Positions 2,287 to 20,149 of a DNA stretch of 20,149 bases are shown here, in pieces. The notes beneath the pieces are model-generated. The model saw nothing but the letters and a program-made list of their open reading frames with translations. It ran no database searches and was not told where the DNA came from. Numbering within the stretch: the stretch's first letter is position 1; the number at the start of each line of letters is the position of its first letter. The stretch is taken from positions 1 through 20,149 of IMG/VR virus record IMGVR_UViG_3300028027_000300. One strand, given 5' to 3'. The DNA is from a virus. Made by a program: the position numbers and the translations under genes.

Positions 2287-5200
2287 TTATCTCCTTCCAA
2301 TAAAAGCATTAACCAATAAATTACGCATACCAAATGCTTGCGTTCCACTGAAGTTATTGATTTGAGTATTTGTGTTTAAGGTAATTGTTTGCGTTCCTGT
2401 AGATGGGGCAGTGTACAAACCTTTAATTGATTGTGTAAAGTTTTGTGATGATTGGATTTGGCTCCAAGGTAAAGAATAGCCATTAAAAACCAATGTTCCA
2501 TTACAGAAAATTTGCGGTGTCAAAACCCAAGGTTGATTTGCTTCTGCTTCAACTCGATAATAGTATGTGCAATCAATCAAAATCTGATCGCCTGCATTTG
2601 CATAAATATAAGATGTTGCAAAGGTATCATCTACAGTAACAATAATAGAACCAGATGCAAACCTTTGGAAGCCGTTAGAACCCGCAAATGATGAAGATGT
2701 GATAGCCTCATTTGCAACTTTCAATGTAGTGATTTGTGCCGTGCCAATCAGGGCTGTTGTGATGGCGGCATTTTGAATATATGCCGTGCCAATTGCAGCC
2801 GCGCCAATGTAGGTTGAAACATTTGCGGATGTGATTGGATTGGCAGATCGAACAATACTATTGTCCAGTCCCGGAACAGTAACAGCACCACCTCCTGCGC
2901 CCGACAATGTGCCATTAGAGTTAATAGAAATATTGTTATTTAACCAACCTGATGCAGGCGTAATATTCCCAAAGTTCAAGGGCGTTCCATTGCCCAAGAT
3001 AACATTGCCAGAACCATCTTTTAATGTCAGATTATTTGAGTTAATGTTAGCCGGGAAAACAACAGTTCCGTTCAGCGTAATTGCTGAACCGTTATATGTG
3101 ATGTTATTGCTTGCATTACCAACTGCAAATTGACCGTTGGAATAAATAACAGCACCCGAACCCGTCATTGTTGTGCCGCTTAAATTTGCAGTATTAGATT
3201 GAATTGTTCCAGAAACAGTTAAATTACCTGTGTTTGTGCTAATAGCAGAAAGGCTACCAACTTTCAATGCAGACAAATACGGCACATTCCAAACTGTTAC
3301 ACCTGTTGCAGGGTTATAAATGCCATCTGACTGATAAACAGACTCTCCTGCACCAATTACTGGTGGAGTATCTTGCCAAACAGTATCCCCTCCCCAAGAG
3401 CCATTTGGCGGGAATGAACTTGAGCCAGATGTTGTAATTGTTGTAGGCGTTGAAGCCAGTGAAGTTAGCGTTGTTTTGGAATAACAAATTCGTGCAGAAG
3501 CACCTTGATTTCCTGTGGGGCCAGTGCCTCCAGTTGGTCCTGTAGCGCCAGTAGGACCAGTAGGACCGGTAGGACCAGTGGCTCCGTTAGTTCCTGCATA
3601 TCCAGCAGCAACAATACTTGCCAAACTCCAATTAATTGAAGTAGTTGTCGCTGTAGCAGTATCAGAAATATTGACAGAAGCAGCCCACAATGTATATCCC
3701 GCACTTGGGGCAGCAGTAATTGATGTATTCCAGCCAGAAGGCACAGGGGTAAATGAGGAATTGGACCATGTGTAAGTAGAACTACCTGTTGGTCCTGCGG
3801 GAATAGTTATTGCCCATTGATAGACAACTGGCCTTGCAGTTTGCAAACCATTTAAACCATTAGTGCCGTTTGTGCCGTTTGCGCCATTCTGTCCATTTAA
3901 AGTAACAGAAGCAATTGAATAGCCGCTTGTCCAACTAATTGTTGAAGTTACAGTGCCAACAACGGCAACAACAGGTTTGGTTGCTGTCCATAATTGAATT
4001 AATGGAACACCGGGATTCGCAGGAATTGTTGTTGTCCATCCACCACCACCCGTGTAACTTGCATTTGTAGCAGTCGCCCAAGTGTATGTAGACTGCCCAC
4101 TAGGATTGGATGGAGTTGCAGTTGACCATTGGTATAGCGTTGGAGTTGCTGATTGATTTCCATCAGTGCCGGGATTTCCTGTTGCGCCTTGATCAACAAA
4201 AACAAATTGCAAAATTGCAGATGCACCTTGCGAAACAAACCCCAAAGCAGATTTGTACCTAACTGGAACAGTAAGGGTTGCAGGAGATGCACTCATTGCA
4301 CTTGGTGCAGCCCATTGTGCAAATGTTCCACCATCAGTCAATGAACCCATCACCAAACCATTGGTAGTGGTGATATCTGCATAGCCAGTAGTTGATGACC
4401 CGCCAATTCGCCAAGTGTTATCTAAAAAAGAAGCATCACTATCTGATTGTGCAGGAACAAAATCAATTGAACCGCCTGCGGCAGAGCCGTACAGTTGTGA
4501 AATTAAACCAGTGAATGATGGAACAAAGGAAGAGTTCCTTGGTACTTGCATAACCACTGGCGAAAATGTAGCCAAGAAAGTACCAGCAACAGCAGTCACC
4601 GTTGGATTAGGCGACCAACTAAAACTAGTTGATATCGGTGAAAGCGCAGAACCACCTAATTCGTTTGCAACTTTATATGAGAAATAATAAGTGCTAGTTG
4701 GTAAATTAATGTTTGAGAAAACAAGATTTGTAGAAGGTGCAAATGGTTGCGAGTTGGATAATGTTTGAACACTCCAGACTTCCCAATCAGTTGTTGTTGG
4801 ACTGCTGACTGTTGTGTAAAACAAAGTCATTTCAGTTACGCGACCTGTTGAAGGAACTAAACAAACAACATCGAAATGCGGAATAGTTGCAGTAGTGTTT
4901 ATATTGGCAACTGTTGGCGCTGTCAGATTGCTAAAGAAATTAGGGTTTGACAGGTTGCTATTTGGTGAAGGCGAAAACTCAGTGATGTCTTTGTCATCAT
5001 AAACTTGCGCGTTGTATTCGTTTAGTTCTAGAGCGGCCCCCAAGTTTCCATCAGGCAATGAAATCTCAGAAACTTTCATTACCCTAAATAACTTATCGTC
5101 CCAACCATAGGCAGAATTGGTTACGCTAATTACATCTCCAGCATCGACTTGAATGCCGTTGTAGGTGGTAGAAAAATTGACAATTAAGTCTTCCCTAGCT

Positions 5201-6432
5201 TGCTCAAGCATTCTGTTAGCAAGGTACTGCGCTTGCACAGAATCATTGACCATACTTAGATCAACGGTGTACTTGTTAACTGGCTCATTAGCAAACAACA
5301 ATTCTTCAGGCGTGTTTAGATAAACATAATCTGATTGGTCACGGTTTAGCTTGCTTGGGAATTGCGCTTGAATTTGGTTAATGCTTGCAGAAATGTCAAA
5401 AGCACTAACTCGAATTTCACCAATAATATTTGAGTCATCAAAATAGAAATTAGTGGCTTGAGCTTTATTAATAACAATTGCCCATTTACCCTTGGTAGCG
5501 TTGTATTGATTCCAAGAATCACAAGCCATCATAATTTGGTCTAGATTAGACAATACATTTTGCCCTGTGTCCAAAACGCCATTAATTCGATAACGAGGCT
5601 GTGTGGCACTACCACCGGCAGCAGGGGTGTAAGTAATCAGTTCATCAGAATAAGTGTTTAGGGCTGTGGCTGTATCAGCGTCAACAATGGTCGCATCCAT
5701 AGCACAACCATATTTCTGATTTGTAATGTAGTCGTACCAAACATCTCCGGGCTTTGCAACACCTTGATTGTTCAAATAATGAGATGCTCTAAATGTCACA
5801 GTTTGCATCTGAGTTGTGCCAGCATCCCTGTTATAGATCATCTTGACAATTGCAAACGCCAAACCATTCATTTGACGGCCCGTAGAAGGCCATCTTTGTG
5901 CTTCGGCTATGTCACTACCACCCATCACAGAATTAGGCAACGCAGAGCCGTTTAAGGCCGTTATAACGCCTGCTTCATTTGATCTGTATAGATGAATGTA
6001 AAGATTGCCAGAAATCTTAGTTTGAACATTGCCTGCGCCATCAGTTAAGCTGACAACTTTGGCTGTATCTGATCCATCAAATCCAATGGTTTGATCCTGC
6101 CAGTACATTTTTGTCGTATCAAAAGAGAATTGACCATTTGGGCTAATCTGAGAAATAGCCAAAACATAGTACATAGTCTTTTGATCTGTTGACAAAACAG
6201 CATCAACAAATGTGCCTCCCAAATAAGCGTCACCATAAACAATTGGCAAGCTATTGGTGGTGGCTGGGGGAACTTGTTGGCGAACTCCATTGTCAATACT
6301 TTGATTAGCACCAGAAGAACCAAATGCTCTCGAAATAACCATCGATAAAGCAAAGTTAACAGCAAACACAGTTGCCGCATAAGCAAAAGTTCCTGCGGCA
6401 AAATATGCCGCTGCAATCATTGTTGCAACCAT
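2287..6432 (-). CDS. TipJ-like central tail tip / host specificity protein
   Basis: 1381 aa, the largest gene here, comparable with lambda gpJ (about 1130 aa) plus extra C-terminal repeats. Residues 1-38 are strongly hydrophobic (AAAYFAAGTFAYAATVFAV), a feature of many TipJ-type proteins. NSLPIVYGDAYLGG at about 60-73 is the typical entry to the tip domain. Residues about 345-450 (INQIQAQFPSKLN, then NRMLEQAREDLIVNFSTTYNG, DAGDVISVTN) match the putative tail protein region of gpJ relatives (PF13550-like). A fibronectin-III-like segment lies near 500-610. Three collagen-like Gly-X-Y hinges near 747-758, 844-862 and 945-975 bound repeated domains of about 100 aa. The beta-rich spike with KVGSLSAISTNTGNLTVSGT starts near 1054, and a separate C-terminal domain (about 1260-1381) probably binds the host. 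AGGGAA precedes the ATG. It overlaps nothing but sits only 2 bases after the acetyltransferase stop. Confidence 0.88.
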   Translation of the reverse strand: MVATMIAAAYFAAGTFAYAATVFAVNFALSMVISRAFGSSGANQSIDNGVRQQVPPATTNSLPIVYGDAYLGGTFVDAVLSTDQKTMYYVLAISQISPNGQFSFDTTKMYWQDQTIGFDGSDTAKVVSLTDGAGNVQTKISGNLYIHLYRSNEAGVITALNGSALPNSVMGGSDIAEAQRWPSTGRQMNGLAFAIVKMIYNRDAGTTQMQTVTFRASHYLNNQGVAKPGDVWYDYITNQKYGCAMDATIVDADTATALNTYSDELITYTPAAGGSATQPRYRINGVLDTGQNVLSNLDQIMMACDSWNQYNATKGKWAIVINKAQATNFYFDDSNIIGEIRVSAFDISASINQIQAQFPSKLNRDQSDYVYLNTPEELLFANEPVNKYTVDLSMVNDSVQAQYLANRMLEQAREDLIVNFSTTYNGIQVDAGDVISVTNSAYGWDDKLFRVMKVSEISLPDGNLGAALELNEYNAQVYDDKDITEFSPSPNSNLSNPNFFSNLTAPTVANINTTATIPHFDVVCLVPSTGRVTEMTLFYTTVSSPTTTDWEVWSVQTLSNSQPFAPSTNLVFSNINLPTSTYYFSYKVANELGGSALSPISTSFSWSPNPTVTAVAGTFLATFSPVVMQVPRNSSFVPSFTGLISQLYGSAAGGSIDFVPAQSDSDASFLDNTWRIGGSSTTGYADITTTNGLVMGSLTDGGTFAQWAAPSAMSASPATLTVPVRYKSALGFVSQGASAILQFVFVDQGATGNPGTDGNQSATPTLYQWSTATPSNPSGQSTYTWATATNASYTGGGGWTTTIPANPGVPLIQLWTATKPVVAVVGTVTSTISWTSGYSIASVTLNGQNGANGTNGTNGLNGLQTARPVVYQWAITIPAGPTGSSTYTWSNSSFTPVPSGWNTSITAAPSAGYTLWAASVNISDTATATTTSINWSLASIVAAGYAGTNGATGPTGPTGPTGATGPTGGTGPTGNQGASARICYSKTTLTSLASTPTTITTSGSSSFPPNGSWGGDTVWQDTPPVIGAGESVYQSDGIYNPATGVTVWNVPYLSALKVGSLSAISTNTGNLTVSGTIQSNTANLSGTTMTGSGAVIYSNGQFAVGNASNNITYNGSAITLNGTVVFPANINSNNLTLKDGSGNVILGNGTPLNFGNITPASGWLNNNISINSNGTLSGAGGGAVTVPGLDNSIVRSANPITSANVSTYIGAAAIGTAYIQNAAITTALIGTAQITTLKVANEAITSSSFAGSNGFQRFASGSIIVTVDDTFATSYIYANAGDQILIDCTYYYRVEAEANQPWVLTPQIFCNGTLVFNGYSLPWSQIQSSQNFTQSIKGLYTAPSTGTQTITLNTNTQINNFSGTQAFGMRNLLVNAFIGRR
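3512..4190 (-). repeat. Collagen-hinged tandem repeat modules within tail tip gene
   Basis: Within the tip protein a unit of about 100 aa recurs. A Gly-X-Y run is followed by (T/V)-x-YQW, about 15 residues later STYTW, then GW-(N/T)-T-x-I-x-A-x-P, an LW and a TxSxxW strand. The next Gly-X-Y run follows. Hinge 1 is at about 4160-4190, hinge 2 at 3845-3900 and hinge 3 at 3512-3600. The third hinge is the purest, a run of Gly-Pro/Ala-Thr triplets encoded by near-identical 9-base units. The unit after hinge 3 is divergent and appears to be only a remnant. Confidence 0.65.
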
Positions 6433-13146: not shown

Positions 13147-13491
13147 TTAAACCGCAGTAACAGGGTCAGAACGGTAGCACATAAATGTCACGCGCATTCT
13201 GTCATTAGATTCGCGCGCGTCAGTAATACGCCAACTATGGTTACGCCATTTAATTGAATAGGATTGCTGATTATCAACAATCGCTTTCATGTTTGGCGTG
13301 TAGTTCAAAGTTAAATTAACCAAGTCTTGATACAAACGATATTTGTCAGCAATCTTTACGCTGTTGGAAACATCTCCAACAAGAGCGCGAGTTGCAAACC
13401 ATTTTGTTTCAGTTGTGCTTTGCTCACCAAAGCTTGACTGCCCAAAAGTCAGGTTATTAACTTCAATGGTTTCATATCTTGTGATTGCCAT
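13147..13491 (-). CDS. Head closure / head-tail joining protein (gp16-like)
   Basis: 114 aa. Short, beta-barrel-like sequence: TKWFATRALVGDVSNSVKIADKYRLYQDL in the first half and SYSIKWRNHSWRITDARESN near residues 77-96, the W-R/I-x-D strand pattern of SPP1 gp16 / phage head-tail joining (PF05521) proteins. The start overlaps the connector stop by one base (TAATG). The protein would close the connector ring below the portal and offer the surface for tail docking. Confidence 0.68.
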   Translation of the reverse strand: MAITRYETIEVNNLTFGQSSFGEQSTTETKWFATRALVGDVSNSVKIADKYRLYQDLVNLTLNYTPNMKAIVDNQQSYSIKWRNHSWRITDARESNDRMRVTFMCYRSDPVTAV

Positions 13492-14162
13492 TACATCACC
13501 AGAGGTTTGTAATTACGAAGCAATGTGGTAACGCCAAATGGGATGTCTTTCAACTTTACTTCAGTGGCGTTAGCACGATTGTTATACAAGTGAGTCAGCA
13601 GCAACAAGCCAGCTTGCTTAATTACAGGATAAGCAGAGATTGGATTAGAAACAGTACTGTATTGAATCACAATTGGCGCAGTCATCACAGTATTAATTGA
13701 TGTTGGCAATGAAGACACAATGATCTTGTTGCCAGAAGCATCATAATAATACTGAGATGGATCAACTACCTCAAAAACAGGAGGGAACGCATCTGTCCAA
13801 TAACCAACTGAACCAATAGTGATTTCAGGCTGTCCTTGATTAATGTTTTGGCTTACTTCAGGCAAGTCAAAGCAAACAGGTGAGGCAGCAAGGCTTGATG
13901 TGCCGTACCAGACGCGATAAGTTACTGGGAAGATACTCAGCCCTAGGTAGTCTTCAATTGCTTGCCTTGTAGCCAATGATAGGCTGGTTATGTAGGAGTC
14001 TTGACTCTCATCATCGTACAAATTCAAATGCTGGGTAACTTCTTCAAGAGTTAACCAAGTTGTTGTATTGTCACGGTTAATCTGCTCAAACTTTTCATAG
14101 TTGAACGGATTGCGCGTTTGCGCCCCGAAGGGCGAACCGTACTGATAATTGTCAACTGCCAT
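13491..14162 (-). CDS. Head-tail connector (gp6/gp15-like)
   Basis: 223 aa. Residues about 35-75 carry WLTLEEVTQHLNLYDDESQD, YITSLSLATRQAIEDYLGLS, the diagnostic start of gp6-like connectors (PF05135: L-x-x-x-K/T-x-HL-x-x-D-x-x-x-D-x-x-I ... A-x-x-x-IE-x-x-x-G). A beta-rich middle (about 80-170) precedes a C-terminal helix with IKQAGLLLLTHLYNNRANAT and the typical GVTTLLRNYKPLVM ending, close to the family's P-x-G-V-x-x-LL-x-x-YR. AAGGG precedes the ATG. Twelve copies would form the ring under the portal. Confidence 0.85.
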   Translation of the reverse strand: MAVDNYQYGSPFGAQTRNPFNYEKFEQINRDNTTTWLTLEEVTQHLNLYDDESQDSYITSLSLATRQAIEDYLGLSIFPVTYRVWYGTSSLAASPVCFDLPEVSQNINQGQPEITIGSVGYWTDAFPPVFEVVDPSQYYYDASGNKIIVSSLPTSINTVMTAPIVIQYSTVSNPISAYPVIKQAGLLLLTHLYNNRANATEVKLKDIPFGVTTLLRNYKPLVM

Positions 14163-14173
14163 TTTTAACCCTT

Positions 14174-15187
14174 TCAGGCGCTCATTCGCACACCAGCGAA
14201 TGGGTCACGAACTGAGCTTACCACACGCTTTTCAGCATAGATGGTAACAAAGCCGGGGCTAGTTTGTTCAAACATCTGAATGGACATTTCTTCATTGTCG
14301 CCAATGGTCAAGAAACGGGGCCAGTTAGCCAAATAGATTGGGAATGAAGTAGACAGGTATGGGTTAGGAATCACAGGGAAACCAAACATACGGCCTACAG
14401 CAGCACCATCTTCATCGCCAATTTCCAAGAACAATGGAAGACCTTGCGTGTCTTTCAAACTACGCAGTGAATCAATCATTGATGGACGGATGTACCAAGC
14501 ATTGCCGGGCAAAGACCAGTACTGGCTTGGGAACGCATTAACAACATCAACAATATCGTTATACACAACACCACCGCTTGTTTGTGCAACAGTAGCAATA
14601 GAGTGAATGCCGTTTGTAATTGCAGTGCCACTTGTGCCATAAGCAGAAGCAGAAGCAGAGACATACATGTCCAAACCACGCAAACCTGATGTAGCACCGG
14701 TTGATGTGGTTGTTGAACCAGCTTGATCGCTGTTGATTGCCATCGATGCGCCTTCAACTTGAGCAAACTCAAGCATCAAGTCGTTAACAATGGAGGCTTC
14801 CAAACCATTCACATCTGACATAACAGCAGAACGGATTGGCAATTGAGCAGTAACAACACGAACAGGCAGTTGCCAGATTGATGTGTTGATATTTGGGCTA
14901 CCTGTGTTGTTTTGAACAGGATAACCCCAAGGGTTTGTTTGATATGTCGCGTTACCAGTTTTAGCAACGAACTGCATATCAGAACCAGACGCTGGAACAA
15001 TACGAGCGCCCAATCGGAATGGGTTAGCGTAACGCAGTGCTGCGAAAGCTTCATCAAAAATCACGCGACCACCAACACCAGAACCAGAGCCAGTGATTGC
15101 AGAGGCTTCTTTCAGGTCGATGTTGACTTTGCCGCCCTCAGTAATGGCCTGTTTGATTCCAGAGAGAATTTTTTCGGTGATGGTCAT
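14174..15187 (-). CDS. Second HK97-fold major capsid-type protein (no delta domain)
   Basis: 337 aa. Clearly paralogous to the upstream capsid protein: from residue 27 (EASAITGSG) on, the two align nearly end to end, with about half the positions identical over the first 125 by hand. Shared blocks include FAALR-ANP, KTGNA, TSIWQL, DGLEA/NGLEA, EFAQ-E and the C-terminal EKR...SVRDP-AGVR. The 100-residue N-terminal scaffolding part of the first protein is replaced by only about 26 residues (MTITEKILSGIKQAITEGGK). It could be a vertex (penton) or minor capsid subunit, as T4 gp24 is to gp23, or a mixed shell component. An AGGAAA site precedes it, and an intrinsic terminator stands between the two genes. 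Confidence 0.85.
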   Translation of the reverse strand: MTITEKILSGIKQAITEGGKVNIDLKEASAITGSGSGVGGRVIFDEAFAALRYANPFRLGARIVPASGSDMQFVAKTGNATYQTNPWGYPVQNNTGSPNINTSIWQLPVRVVTAQLPIRSAVMSDVNGLEASIVNDLMLEFAQVEGASMAINSDQAGSTTTSTGATSGLRGLDMYVSASASAYGTSGTAITNGIHSIATVAQTSGGVVYNDIVDVVNAFPSQYWSLPGNAWYIRPSMIDSLRSLKDTQGLPLFLEIGDEDGAAVGRMFGFPVIPNPYLSTSFPIYLANWPRFLTIGDNEEMSIQMFEQTSPGFVTIYAEKRVVSSVRDPFAGVRMSA

Positions 15188-15206
15188 GGCTATTTCCTAA
15201 ATTATT

Positions 15207-15238
15207 AAAACAAAAAGGAGGGGGAATTACCCCCCTCC
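15207..15238 (-). terminator. Rho-independent terminator after capsid gene 1
   Basis: On the minus strand an 8-bp GGAGGGGG/CCCCCTCC stem with a six-base loop is followed by TTTTTGTTTT. It starts 6 bases after the stop of the first capsid gene and ends 19 bases before the start of the second. The canonical form makes function likely. Partial read-through must occur unless a promoter lies at its end. It would make the first capsid mRNA the most abundant and guard its 3' end. Confidence 0.88.
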
Positions 15239-15244
15239 GTTTTA

Positions 15245-16588
15245 TCAGGCTGCTGTGCCTGTAGAACGATAGCGAACACCAGCGTTAGGATCACGCACAG
15301 ATGTTGCCAAACGCTTCTCACCGAAGAAGGTGATGTAACCGGGCAATGTCTGGTCGTATCTACGCATAACCATGTTCAGACGGTCGATGATTGTGTGGAA
15401 GCGGCTCCAGTCAGCGAAGTACATTGGATACAAGCTGTTAGTGCCGGCAGAAGCCACAGTAGTTTGTGAAGGAGTATCGCAATACTTGTTCACAACAACA
15501 TCGAAGCCCAACAAGTTGCCAACAATACCGTCAACAGACAAACCTTCATTACGATTGAAGATAGGTGCGCCATTGTCATCTTTCAATGCACGAATAGCAT
15601 TCAACAGGATTGGGCTGATAACGAACTTAGCGCTTTCGGTCCAATATTGTTGCGGGAGGCTATATACGAAATTGACCACATCGGTATAGGTGATGTTGTT
15701 GGCGCCAACAGTATTAGCGTTAGTTGTCAATTGGTCGTATGTTGCCAAGCTGTGCAAGCCGCTGGTAGAACCAGTGCCAGAAGAGCCGAAGGCAGCAGTA
15801 GTGCAAACACCACCAGCATAAGTTGACGCAGCACCAGCGTATTGGTCAAGGCCACGCAATCCGTTGCTTCCACCGTATGGCAAAGAAGTCAAACCTTGGT
15901 CGTTATTTTGCATCATGCTGAGAGCTTCAGCTTGAGCAAATTCAGCCAACATGTCATCAACGACATTGGCTTCCAAACCATCGATGTCATCCAATGCAGC
16001 AGTACGGATTGGGAACTGAACATTCAAGTCTTGCAAAACGAGTTGCCAGATAGAAGTGTCTTCAGTTGTAGCAGCACCGTTGTTCTGAATGCCATAGCCC
16101 CAAGCAGCGCCAGCGTTGCCGGTCTTGACACGGAACTGGTAGCTTGAACCATCGGTAGCAACAGTGCGTGAAACACCGCGCAATGGATTAGCCAAACGCA
16201 GTGCAGCAAACACTGGGTCATAAGCGGTACGACCACCTTGATTGTTACCAGAACCTGTCAAAGCAGAAGCTTCGTTCAGGTAAGCTTGCATTTGTGATTC
16301 GTCAGCAAAAATTTGCAGTTCTTTTTCTACACGGTTGTTACCTTTGTAGAAAGAAGACAGTTGCTCGCGAACGCTGCGGTTCACATCTTGACGAATAGTC
16401 TTGGCAACAGGCTTGTGCAGAGCAGGAGCTTCAATAGAAGACACTTTGGCTTCCAGAGCAGCAACCATTTCGCTGAATTCAGCTTTAACAGCTTCAACAG
16501 CAGCGGGGATTTTGGCCTCAACAGCCGCAACGCTCTCAGCTTGTTTAGCTTCGATAGCGTCCAATTTTTCAATGATTTCTTTTGACAT
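15245..16588 (-). CDS. Major capsid protein, HK97 family, with delta domain
   Basis: 447 aa. Residues 1-55 are an Ala/Glu/Lys coiled coil (EKLDAIEAKQAESVAAVEAK), the scaffolding delta domain, followed by a linker and then the HK97 fold from about residue 107 (EASALTGSG). FAALRLANPLRG, KTGNAGAAWGYG, TSIWQL and the C-terminal GEKRLATSVRDPNAGVRY are conserved features of this capsid family. The prohead protease encoded next door would be expected to remove the delta domain before expansion, cutting near residue 100-107, an inference. Protease and capsid genes are 2 bases apart. The gene is followed by a strong terminator, consistent with high expression. Confidence 0.93.
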   Translation of the reverse strand: MSKEIIEKLDAIEAKQAESVAAVEAKIPAAVEAVKAEFSEMVAALEAKVSSIEAPALHKPVAKTIRQDVNRSVREQLSSFYKGNNRVEKELQIFADESQMQAYLNEASALTGSGNNQGGRTAYDPVFAALRLANPLRGVSRTVATDGSSYQFRVKTGNAGAAWGYGIQNNGAATTEDTSIWQLVLQDLNVQFPIRTAALDDIDGLEANVVDDMLAEFAQAEALSMMQNNDQGLTSLPYGGSNGLRGLDQYAGAASTYAGGVCTTAAFGSSGTGSTSGLHSLATYDQLTTNANTVGANNITYTDVVNFVYSLPQQYWTESAKFVISPILLNAIRALKDDNGAPIFNRNEGLSVDGIVGNLLGFDVVVNKYCDTPSQTTVASAGTNSLYPMYFADWSRFHTIIDRLNMVMRRYDQTLPGYITFFGEKRLATSVRDPNAGVRYRSTGTAA

Positions 16589-16590
16589 GA

Positions 16591-17391
16591 TTAACCTTTA
16601 AGTCGTTTGTCTAGGAGTTTAAGAAGTTCGCGTTGCTCAAGAGCAGCGAGAATTTCAGCTTCGGTCGCTTCCGCACCAGAGTCACTCTGTTGAGGCGCAA
16701 TTTCAATTGCTTCAGTTGCAGCATCACGCTGCTCCAGAACTTTCTTGAATGTTGATGCGGCAGCGACCGCATCGCTTTTGGACAACCCAGCATCCCGCAA
16801 GGCTTCTTCCAAAACTTTTAAATCAGCAGAGCCATCAGCGCGGAAATATTCCAGCTTCTTAACTTCTGCTTTAGGATTATTTGGGTACATCACAACGCTA
16901 GTCTCGCGCAAACCACCTTTAGTGATTTGGAAGTAGCCTTTTTCCCAATAGTCATCAGACCCTGCTGGAAAAACTTCGCCACCTTCAGTGACCCACTGAT
17001 ATTCGTCAGCATAAGCGCCAACAGACACGCCACCGAACATGTTTGGTGACTCACACATAACTTGATAAAGGTCTGAACCAACACTGGTGTTCAGGAACAA
17101 GCGACCGCTGGCGCTCATGCCTTCATCATCCATTTCAATGCTTGTCCACTCGCCAACAGGCATAGACTCAGCATTGTGGTTCAAGAACATTGGAAGTGGT
17201 CTGCCAGAAGCGGCAAACTCTTTGGCCCACTCCATAAAGCCTTCAGGCTTATAGAAGAATTTGCGACCATCAGCGCCTTCGCGAGCGCCCCAAGTGGTAA
17301 TGCGAGCTTCAATCTTGCCTGTTGGTTCTCCGCTTGCGGATTTTTCCGTTAGGTTTAACCTTGCTTCGCAGATTAGATTCATTTGCTTCAT
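16591..17391 (-). CDS. Prohead maturation protease (S78 family)
   Basis: 266 aa. The catalytic core follows HK97 gp4 relatives. KIEARITTWG at about residues 26-35 is the first strand. PMFLNHNAESMPVGEW at 67-82 contains the likely catalytic His72. MFGGVSVGAY at 118-127 contains Ser123. RETSVVMYPNNPKAEV at 162-177 matches the E-x-SvV-x-x-PaN-x-A motif. A C-terminal extension of about 80 residues is Glu/Ala-rich and helical and may act as a scaffold-like tail. AGGGG lies 6 nt before the ATG. It cleaves the capsid delta domain and itself during maturation. Confidence 0.9.
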   Translation of the reverse strand: MKQMNLICEARLNLTEKSASGEPTGKIEARITTWGAREGADGRKFFYKPEGFMEWAKEFAASGRPLPMFLNHNAESMPVGEWTSIEMDDEGMSASGRLFLNTSVGSDLYQVMCESPNMFGGVSVGAYADEYQWVTEGGEVFPAGSDDYWEKGYFQITKGGLRETSVVMYPNNPKAEVKKLEYFRADGSADLKVLEEALRDAGLSKSDAVAAASTFKKVLEQRDAATEAIEIAPQQSDSGAEATEAEILAALEQRELLKLLDKRLKG

Positions 17392-17530: not shown

Positions 17531-18931
17531 TCAAGTCTTTCCTATATTCATTTTCTTCTTTTGGTTTCCACCACCGCCACCAGTATCTTGGGGGCTAGAA
17601 CCAGAAATAGAATCAGCCGGTTTATTAGGTTGGACCAACTCATCGCCACCTTCAATATTAGGCATGCCCATATACTCACGCGCTTCGTTGGGAGTCATAA
17701 TTCCATTGGTCACACCCGCTGTCGCAAAGTTCATTTGGTCAAGTGGTGCGCCCTTCAAGAAGTCGCTGGTGTCAAACTCAACACAAAGTGATGGATAACC
17801 AACAAATAAATGCTGCTTGAGTTTTTCTTGGATGTTTACCAGCATTGGGTACATAGTCCCTTTGTAGAACTCATCCATTTGCGTTTGACTGTTATTAAAC
17901 TTGCCATCAATAATGCCGATCATTTGTGGAGGCACACCAAATAAGCCGCAAATCCTACGCATGGTCTGCATCTTCAGGTTAGCAGCGTCAGCATCTTGCA
18001 AGTTGAGCATTTCCAATGGCGTGTACTTCATGCCTTGGTCCAGCAGCATGCCTTGACCGGGCTTAGATGGGTCAGATTGGCGTGAGCCAACCATATTGCT
18101 CCAAGCTTCTTTTAAACGGGCAGCAATTTCTTTATATTTGGCATCAGGTACAACAGCATCGGTCGAGAACATGCCAGATGGCTTTGCACCGTTCTGCATC
18201 ACATAGTTTGCGTACAGGTCAATGTCTTGGTCTAAGGCTACCAACTCAGCAGCCAAGATACCTTTGTTGAAACCGGCAGAACCTTGCCACGCCATCTCTT
18301 TGCAGTGCATGATTTGATGCGCTTTGAGTGGCTGGTCACGGCTAAAGCCGTATGCCGGTGTAGACAGGCGATACGATGGATATCGTGCAGGATTGATTGT
18401 TACAGCAATCAATGTGCTATCCATAATATACATTTCCAGAGGAGTCTCGGTTGCAGACTCTTGGTCTTTTCGCCACCACAGAGTAAACGCTTCACCAGCA
18501 AGCTCATACCACATGAGCCACTGATACCAGAACTCATATTTGCTCTGGAAGTTATTAGGATTATTCAAAAGCTTGGCAACTTGCTTGGCTTTTGTCTTAT
18601 CTCGTGTGCCAACTGACGGGTCTTTAATGGCATTTACATATTCGCCATCTTCGCCTTCGCAACAAATGTTAATTGGCAACTGTGCAAGCGCCCTAGCTTT
18701 AATCGCAATACAGGACATCACTGTGCTGTTGCGTGTAAGCATTGACATGTCAACAGGGCGACCAGCATTGGTCGTGCTGGCTGTCGTGACATAGAGTATC
18801 TGGGTATTTACATTTGGCTGCTGTTTATTGCTTTGGTAAACAATATTGTTGCCCAATGCAGTCTGACCAAACAACGAGTTGCTCTCATTATTTGTTGCTT
18901 TTTTACTGCTAAAAACATCCAAAATGCCCAT
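17531..18931 (-). CDS. Portal protein, HK97 family
   Basis: 466 aa, typical length for the HK97 portal family (PF04860). MLTRNSTVMSCIAIKARALA at about residues 64-83 is the V-x-aCI-x-x-iA-x-x-iA-x-lP helix. LLNNPNNFQSKYEFW at 121-135 and MWYELAGEAFTLWWR at 140-154 match the P-N-x-x-x-x-x-x-F and L-x-GNAy blocks. RRICGLFGVPPQMIG at 325-339 is the conserved IA-x-x-F-gVPp-x-x-lg motif. GIMTPNEAREYMGMP at 410-424 is the usual C-terminal N-G-x-x-x-x-NE-x-R-x-x-x-g-x-p. The C-terminus is Gly-rich, then Lys-rich. An AGGAGA ribosome site precedes the ATG. Twelve copies form the DNA channel. Confidence 0.94.
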   Translation of the reverse strand: MGILDVFSSKKATNNESNSLFGQTALGNNIVYQSNKQQPNVNTQILYVTTASTTNAGRPVDMSMLTRNSTVMSCIAIKARALAQLPINICCEGEDGEYVNAIKDPSVGTRDKTKAKQVAKLLNNPNNFQSKYEFWYQWLMWYELAGEAFTLWWRKDQESATETPLEMYIMDSTLIAVTINPARYPSYRLSTPAYGFSRDQPLKAHQIMHCKEMAWQGSAGFNKGILAAELVALDQDIDLYANYVMQNGAKPSGMFSTDAVVPDAKYKEIAARLKEAWSNMVGSRQSDPSKPGQGMLLDQGMKYTPLEMLNLQDADAANLKMQTMRRICGLFGVPPQMIGIIDGKFNNSQTQMDEFYKGTMYPMLVNIQEKLKQHLFVGYPSLCVEFDTSDFLKGAPLDQMNFATAGVTNGIMTPNEAREYMGMPNIEGGDELVQPNKPADSISGSSPQDTGGGGGNQKKKMNIGKT

Positions 18932-18955: not shown

Positions 18956-19936
18956 CTACCAATCTAATGACCTGAAGCCAAATGATTCCGTAACGAAAAC
19001 ATTATCTAGGTGGCAGTGTAACGCCATAATCATAGAAATAATACCGTCAACTTTGGCAGATGGGTCTGCCTCATTCTTACGCACCTTCACATTGCCGTTG
19101 ACATCGGTATAAACCTCGCAGTTTCCAAGCTGCCACCCAACAAATGGGTTGCCATCGTGCTTTATGGCTTTCTTGAGAATAAGCTGCTCAGTCGTTTTAG
19201 ATGGGTTGGAAAGTACAGCCATACCTTGACCCACCTTTTTGACAGGTAGCCCGTGGCTGTATAAGTTTGCAACCAAAGCAGCAGCGTTGTAAGGGTCGAA
19301 CGCAATTTCTTTAACATCATGGAAAATACACTCCGCTTTAATGTAGGTTTCAATCTCATTCAGGTCTGTCACATTGCCTTGAGTAAGCTTAAGGATGCCT
19401 GAAGCTTGGGCTTGAAGGTAGATTGGCTTGTAATGGTTTGGCACAAAATCCATCGACTCTTCTGGCAGGAAGAATTGGAACTTAGCATAAAAGTCTTCTT
19501 CGCCATACCTGTGCAAAGTGCAGACAGCGTTCAAGTCACGGCTGTGCGCCAAGTCAAATGCAATAAATGTTGACTCAGGTTTATCCTGTGGTTTTTCAGC
19601 AACAGACTCATCCCAGAAGCGCCTGTCAACCCATGCGGCATTGGCAGATACATAAATGTTTAATTGTTTGCACAGGAACTCATTCAAGCTGGCTGGCTTG
19701 GCAGAAGCCTCTTCAGCCATGTGCCGGATATGGTCAACAGTAACTGAAATGCCAAGCATAGGGTTTGCCTTACCCCAGACATCAGGATTGCTCCATTCAT
19801 CTCCGGGATCGATGCTGTACAGCAGTCCAAACCACCTAAAGTTGTCAGCAGCAGCGCCACGAAGCACAGACCGGAAATGATTCAAATCTTCGTAAAACTT
19901 TGTATCTTTGGTAAAACTTGCAGTTGTCAGATACAT
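18956..19936 (-). CDS. terL: Terminase large subunit, C-terminal (nuclease) part, 5' end displaced
   Basis: The minus frame is open to 20011, but only the part from about 19936 down (MYLTTASFTKDTKFYEDL) looks like terminase. TTAS is the usual motif after the ATPase domain, and YSIDPGDEWSNPDVWGKANP follows as in HK97 TerL (PF03354). The RNase-H-like nuclease acids can be seen, numbered from the ATG at 20011: Asp153 (IAFDLAHSRDLNAV), Asp239 (EIAFDPYNAA) and Asp322 (AKVDGIISMIMAL). The ATPase half with Walker A and B is missing from this strand. The first 25 or so residues of the open frame are the antisense of plus-strand terminase and should not be taken as real. Function when intact: ATP-driven DNA packaging and cutting. 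Confidence 0.9.
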   Translation of the reverse strand: MYLTTASFTKDTKFYEDLNHFRSVLRGAAADNFRWFGLLYSIDPGDEWSNPDVWGKANPMLGISVTVDHIRHMAEEASAKPASLNEFLCKQLNIYVSANAAWVDRRFWDESVAEKPQDKPESTFIAFDLAHSRDLNAVCTLHRYGEEDFYAKFQFFLPEESMDFVPNHYKPIYLQAQASGILKLTQGNVTDLNEIETYIKAECIFHDVKEIAFDPYNAAALVANLYSHGLPVKKVGQGMAVLSNPSKTTEQLILKKAIKHDGNPFVGWQLGNCEVYTDVNGNVKVRKNEADPSAKVDGIISMIMALHCHLDNVFVTESFGFRSLDW

Positions 19937-19940
19937 CCGC
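19925..19940. other. Inverted junction inside terL
   Basis: Left of this zone the minus strand reads as terminase C-terminal part; right of it the plus strand reads as terminase N-terminal part. The central ATPase section, including Walker B, is absent. Both readings remain plausible through about 16 bases, so the break cannot be placed exactly. A chimeric inverted join in amplification or assembly is the simplest cause; a real inversion is possible. Confidence 0.8.
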
Positions 19941-20149
19941 CATGTGAAGGGGCCAGAGGCTGGCAAAGCTATTGAGTTGGCGCCATTCCAGATTTTGCTA
20001 CTGGCTGGCATCTACGGCTTTCGGGCAAAGAATGATGTGAACACCCGCTGGGTGACAGATGTGATTTTGTTCGTGCCGCGCAAGTCAGGCAAGACAACAT
20101 TGGCCTCCATCATTGCCCTGTACGAATTGCAGTTTGGCGATGCTGGCGC
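19932..20149 (+). CDS. terL: Terminase large subunit, N-terminal ATPase fragment, opposite strand
   Basis: In the plus frame starting at 19932 the sequence reads YIRHVKGPEAGKAIELAPFQ, then a hydrophobic helix LLLAGIYGF and VILFVPRKSGKTTLASIIAL up to the window end. This is the N-terminal pattern of HK97-type TerL: h-x-kG-x-x-aG-x-x-x-x-L-x-p-Q, then iyG(w/f), then the R-K-x-GKT/S Walker A loop (PRKSGKTTLA at about 20077-20106). The true start and the rest of the ATPase lie outside or are lost. It probably comes from the same terminase gene as the minus-strand part, since exactly the N-terminal section is missing there. Confidence 0.85.

Follow-up and report, generated by a model that had tools for sequence, protein, structure and literature searches.

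HK97-type siphophages are, by the textbook account, built from one capsid protein that forms both pentamers and hexamers, with the vertex protein of T4 as the known exception. What role, then, does a second capsid gene play when it lies directly beside the first in a small tailed phage? The question is raised by a 20,149-nucleotide stretch of viral DNA (IMG/VR record IMGVR_UViG_3300028027_000300, positions 1 to 20,149), which was analysed as a whole and is referred to here as the window. A first-pass annotation had described two tandem, paralogous HK97-fold capsid proteins that align almost end to end, only the first of which has an N-terminal scaffolding domain. It proposed that the short copy, which we call MCP2, joins a shell nucleated by the long copy, MCP1, perhaps at vertices or as a specialised subunit, and that it is born close to its mature length.

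Two HK97-fold capsid proteins encoded in tandem

Both open reading frames were found where they had been placed, on the minus strand, and the description of the pair was right (Table 1). In transcription order the window encodes the terminase large subunit, portal, S78 prohead protease, MCP1, MCP2, head-tail adaptor and tail genes, with the protease (PF04586) directly upstream of MCP1. Among the tail genes are those for a tape measure of the lambda type and for a J-like tip protein (window 2287-6432, 1381 aa), which has collagen-like Gly-X-Y repeats near residues 944-977 (a weak Pfam match, below the cut-off).

Table 1. Head genes and capsid-related features of the window, in transcription order.
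Feature	Position	Strand	Basis
Terminase large subunit, nuclease part; window end possibly cuts the gene	18956..20011	-	PF20441 8e-41
Portal protein	17531..18931	-	PF04860 9e-63
Prohead protease, peptidase S78 family	16591..17391	-	PF04586 1.4e-7; PHROG head maturation protease
MCP1, 447-aa major capsid protein, HK97 fold, N-terminal helical prodomain (predicted)	15245..16588	-	PF05065 1e-29, TIGR01554, AlphaFold, PDB fold matches led by RcGTA capsid
MCP1 N-terminal helical region, residues 1 to ~105, likely delta/scaffolding-type	16274..16588	-	AlphaFold helices; outside the part shared with MCP2
Terminator-like GC-rich hairpin and T-tract between MCP1 and MCP2	15215..15240	-	GGAGGGGGGTAATTCCCCCTCC-TTTTTGTTTT; MFE -23.1 kcal/mol, z -3.3
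MCP2, 337-aa HK97-fold paralogue without long prodomain	14174..15187	-	42% identity to MCP1, PF05065 2e-20, AlphaFold, PDB matches
MCP2 short N-terminal region, residues 1-26, one helix and one strand, precedes MCP1/MCP2 homology	15110..15187	-	BLASTP, AlphaFold
Head-tail connector/adaptor	13491..14162	-	PF05135 9e-8, PHROG_40 adaptor Ad1

The paralogy was borne out by BLASTP, which aligned the two proteins with 143 identities over 341 positions (42%, E = 2e-77), from residue 104 of MCP1 and residue 25 of MCP2 to the C-terminal SVRDP-AGVR. Both proteins exceeded the curated cut-offs for PF05065 (Phage_capsid, 24.2 bits) and TIGR01554 (27.5 bits), MCP1 scoring 104 and 102 bits and MCP2 scoring 74 and 68 bits.

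Structure prediction, which had been suggested for both copies, gave an HK97 fold in each. The AlphaFold models were built on 83 MCP1 and 94 MCP2 family sequences (those below 93% identity after near-duplicates were collapsed), and had a mean pLDDT of 65 for MCP1, which is moderate confidence only, and 77 for MCP2. Both matched solved HK97-fold capsids, with the RcGTA capsid at the top for each (VIA Z ~21) and HK97 at 15-18. A sequence search of the PDB with MCP1 retrieved the RcGTA and EcCI2 capsids, and the same direct search with MCP2 gave no meaningful match. T4 gp23 and gp24 were absent from the top fold matches of the two models, and no T4 chain was among the matches in a profile search of solved structures. 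As the short copy is predicted to have the full HK97 fold, MCP2 is most likely a shell subunit.

N-terminal regions of the two proteins

The MCP1 model has helices at residues 2-50 and 65-83, a region that MCP2 does not have; the N-terminus of MCP2 is predicted to form a short helix (residues 3-17) and a strand (21-24). Wherever the core motif could be matched, it is preceded by 104-123 residues in MCP1 and by 28-47 in MCP2. The helical region of MCP1 ends about where the register of HK97 and RcGTA puts the start of the mature N-arm, so residues 1 to ~105 are likely a delta-type prodomain that is removed at maturation, the domain boundaries on both proteins having been set by analogy. It is plausible, if uncertain, that MCP2 is born near its mature length, with 26 residues still ahead of the expected start of its N-arm.

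The restriction of an N-terminal domain to the first copy held for the window and most of its relatives. It did not hold for 11 loci (L071-L074, L078, L081, L187, L196, L197, L206 and L295), in which MCP2 has an alternative domain of ~100 aa in frame upstream (fused frames L072:4671-6005 and L206:5931-7253, for example), starting with its own ATG where read. With 72-73% identity, L071-L081 are closely related to the window, and L197 and L206 lie far from its clade in the MCP2 tree. The additional N-terminal segment matches PHROG_2859 (E 2e-26 and 3e-29), which in records of cyanophages, roseophages and actinophages stands at the head of proteins annotated as capsid protein or protease: it is N-terminal in the annotated 'major capsid protein' (~800 aa) of Synechococcus S-CBS1 and Roseobacter CRP-406, and lies near the N-terminus of the annotated capsid maturation protease of DSL-LC01. 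It was found in none of the MCP1 frames of the family loci. The fusions indicate that MCP2 can acquire an N-terminal domain of an assembly type, and they would fit an MCP2 N-terminus that faces the procapsid interior.

PHROG_2859 heads morphogenesis proteins of other phages as well as these 11 MCP2s, which could also mean that MCP2 is an assembly factor (a procapsid chaperone or a decoy) that stays outside the mature shell. We consider this very improbable, as the E-loop, N-arm and C-terminal EKR..SVRDPFAGVR motif are as well conserved in MCP2 as in MCP1.

An old and obligatory pair

IMG/VR was scanned five times and the GTDB genomes once, which yielded ~300 loci, with more than 570 matching stretches confirmed in each of two scans. 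MCP1 followed by MCP2, both intact, was found in 286 of the fetched loci, a number that counts loci and not independent phages, since several scans retrieved some of the same contigs. The order was constant wherever the sequence sufficed, and at the single-copy loci that were inspected the contig ended at or beside the missing gene. The sole annotated and cultured phage with the pair is P19250A (KX815270), which infects a freshwater bacterium of the Methylophilaceae; there MCP1 and MCP2 correspond, without a change of order, to genes 5 and 6 (62% and 57% identity), and gene 6, the MCP2 counterpart, is annotated as 'hypothetical protein'. One contig of 75,987 bases (L241) is about twice the length of the P19250A genome, and is possibly a head-to-tail dimer assembly. 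MCP1 is broken by a stop in L068 and MCP2 is split in L242, which may reflect assembly error or real decay.

Pairwise dN/dS had a median of 0.14 for MCP1 and 0.09 for MCP2. The first-pass annotation had staked its reading on the pair recurring in related phage contigs and on the second copy not evolving at a dN/dS near 1; the 286 loci and the value of 0.09, which indicates purifying selection, agree with it on both counts. It had also asked, by way of a tree, whether the duplication is old and conserved. MCP1 and MCP2 were each monophyletic (support 100/100), and with an outgroup of nine prophage capsids, each from a genome that had one match only, they formed one clade (100/100). On this topology, the duplication predates the radiation of the family. 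The stem of MCP2 was longer than that of MCP1 in the outgroup tree (0.69 and 0.44), as expected if MCP2 took on a new role. The open frames of the outgroup are 412-503 aa long, which makes it the simpler reading that MCP2 lost its N-terminal domain.

MCP1 and MCP2 are thus an old, obligatory pair of paralogues under purifying selection, in a large family of small tailed phages of a freshwater type. The proposition that MCP2 is a recent duplicate in decay, or an incipient pseudogene, has practically no chance of being correct. No support for it was found, the broken genes of L068 and L242 being single loci, and it is refuted by the dN/dS of MCP2, the age of the duplication and the finding of both genes at every locus long enough to hold them.

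We also considered gene conversion as the cause of the similarity between MCP1 and MCP2, and rejected it: codon identity within the same genome was raised evenly along the genes, as codon usage would do, so there is no clear conversion tract. The clearest same-genome excess of MCP1/MCP2 identity was in the N-arm (z 5.3), and this small excess (0.59 vs 0.57, uncorrected for phylogeny) faintly hints at co-adaptation in one shell.

A putative terminator between the capsid genes

The spacer between MCP1 and MCP2 contains an element that is new here and was absent from the first-pass annotation, a GC-rich hairpin followed by a T-tract, which is the strongest site of a terminator-like kind anywhere on the window's coding strand. 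Terminator-like sites were present in 138 of 164 distinct MCP1-MCP2 spacers, compared to 1-3 in shuffled sequences, and in 80-nt controls they were found in 1/175 after MCP2 and 0/160 before MCP1. The median folding z of the spacers was -2.9 (control, -0.2). The stems vary in sequence with many paired changes, and the loops are often UUCG, GAAA or GCAA (UUCG/GNRA tetraloops). The spacers outside the 138, where read, also have GC-rich hairpins, mostly with weaker T-tracts. The element has the features of an intrinsic (Rho-independent) terminator, namely a GC-rich hairpin, a T-tract and conservation of structure over sequence, and from these we regard it as a putative transcription terminator. 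Its conservation between the genes suggests that MCP2 is probably made in a smaller amount than MCP1. A comparable terminator follows capsid gene 10 of T7.

In two loci (L026:4462-5001 and L032:4462-5001) MCP1 and MCP2 are separated by an ORF of 180 aa, and L027 has a gap of the same size, 552 nt. The ORF resembles, by eye, a homing endonuclease of the GIY-YIG/NUMOD3 type; it had no significant Pfam match.

Dosage controlled by a terminator could tune capsid size, and MCP2 might accordingly be an alternative capsid protein, altering the size of the capsid or used under specific conditions, and missing from some virions. This seems very improbable to us, given that MCP2 was present in every locus examined, is under stronger purifying selection than MCP1 and in most cases has no prodomain of its own.

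A proposed two-component shell

How might two capsid proteins share one shell? The explanation that we favour, and think reasonably probable, is that MCP1 forms the hexamers and MCP2 is a minor subunit, limited by the terminator and most likely forming the vertex pentamers, in convergence with T4 gp23/gp24. A duplicated HK97-type capsid gene would have split into two obligate shell proteins. MCP1 would have retained the N-terminal delta-type assembly domain and, as the bulk product, would build the hexameric lattice with the portal and protease. The terminator immediately after MCP1 would leave MCP2 and the downstream genes to be expressed by read-through, in a smaller amount. Without the long domain MCP2 would probably be unable to nucleate a shell alone; it would enter the MCP1-scaffolded procapsid through shared N-arm, E-loop and P-domain surfaces, and occupy the positions that are in the minority, with the pentameric vertices as the likeliest place (~55 copies, should the shell be T=7). 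Termination in vivo, the lower copy number, co-assembly, the vertex position and the points of cleavage are all steps that we infer.

Several lines of reasoning favour the vertices: the precedent of T4 gp24, its shorter propeptide, the position of the mutations that bypass it, and the length differences between MCP1 and MCP2. In T4 the N-terminal propeptides that are removed comprise 65 residues in gp23 and 10 in gp24, and gp24-bypass mutations in gp23 map to the A domain (PMC9958956). The larger length differences between MCP1 and MCP2 come after the long helix (MCP1 residues 257-264, 287-294 and 375-383), where by analogy the A domain, around the capsomer axis, is expected. A dedicated vertex subunit is not required, since most HK97-type siphophages build pentamers and hexamers from one protein.

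A minor shell subunit could also sit elsewhere, at specific hexamer positions (in mixed capsomers) or around the portal vertex. A full fold and a conserved N-arm would permit incorporation anywhere, and the Family 2B encapsulins, whose chains were among the fold matches, are mixed, irregularly tiled HK97-fold shells (PMC12407261). We nevertheless consider such a placement unlikely, if worth serious thought, because T4, the known phage precedent, has its paralogue at the pentamers and because the length differences fall at the expected A domain. It is distinctly unlikely, in our estimation, that the pair forms an obligate two-component shell in which MCP2 occupies mixed capsomers or specific hexamer positions, and not simply vertices, in a ratio set by the terminator. 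Such an HK97 architecture is, to our knowledge, known from no phage.

If the vertex arrangement is a second independent origin, a ~38 kb phage with a cultured member, P19250A, would be a small model of the split in duties between hexamer and pentamer. It would also be a model for how the loss of a scaffolding domain follows, and for dosage set by a terminator. A likely function would be given to a 'hypothetical' gene that is kept in hundreds of environmental phage contigs.

Comparison with known systems

The tandem pair had been judged little described. This agrees with the label of its second gene in P19250A and with the open-access papers searched, which gave no account of tandem capsid genes in any small siphophage (the original description of P19250A lies outside this scope) and only one siphophage, Colossus, with capsid paralogues. 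Venkman (MT375522; L223), reported as a relative of P19250A (PMC8163748), was rejected as a second cultured member, as its annotated head module contains a single capsid gene together with a distinct gene for a scaffolding protein, and none of its ORFs matches either MCP profile. The 'two major capsid proteins' of JBD30, SU10 and Patience were also rejected, being one protein in two positions; the Rosebush/Patience structure paper mentions no second capsid protein.

The Caulobacter siphophage Colossus has a capsid protein, gp81, and a diverged paralogue, gene 36; unlike MCP2, this paralogue is translocated ~21 kb away, and is described in one phage of its set (PMC3556154). In the Family 2B encapsulin of Streptomyces lydicus two HK97-fold proteins co-assemble in one shell (PMC12407261). 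This shell differs in being a cellular compartment with irregular tiling, and not a phage head. The RcGTA capsid protein (Rcc01687) and HK97 gp5 share the fold that is common to both MCPs, and in each of these systems one capsid protein serves for both capsomers.

T4 has the gene order portal, protease, capsid, paralogue, and its gp23 and gp24, ~20% identical, build a large prolate head with a separate scaffold. The MCP1/MCP2 locus differs in the 42% identity of its two proteins, in the small genome (38.7 kb in P19250A), in the terminator-like element between the genes and in having no separate scaffold gene between the protease and MCP1. It resembles T4 in the order of the four genes, and in keeping paralogous HK97-fold genes together, the minor one with a shorter N-terminal region. 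By analogy, MCP1 and MCP2 may work as gp23 and gp24 do, a likeness that we draw in arrangement and not as membership.
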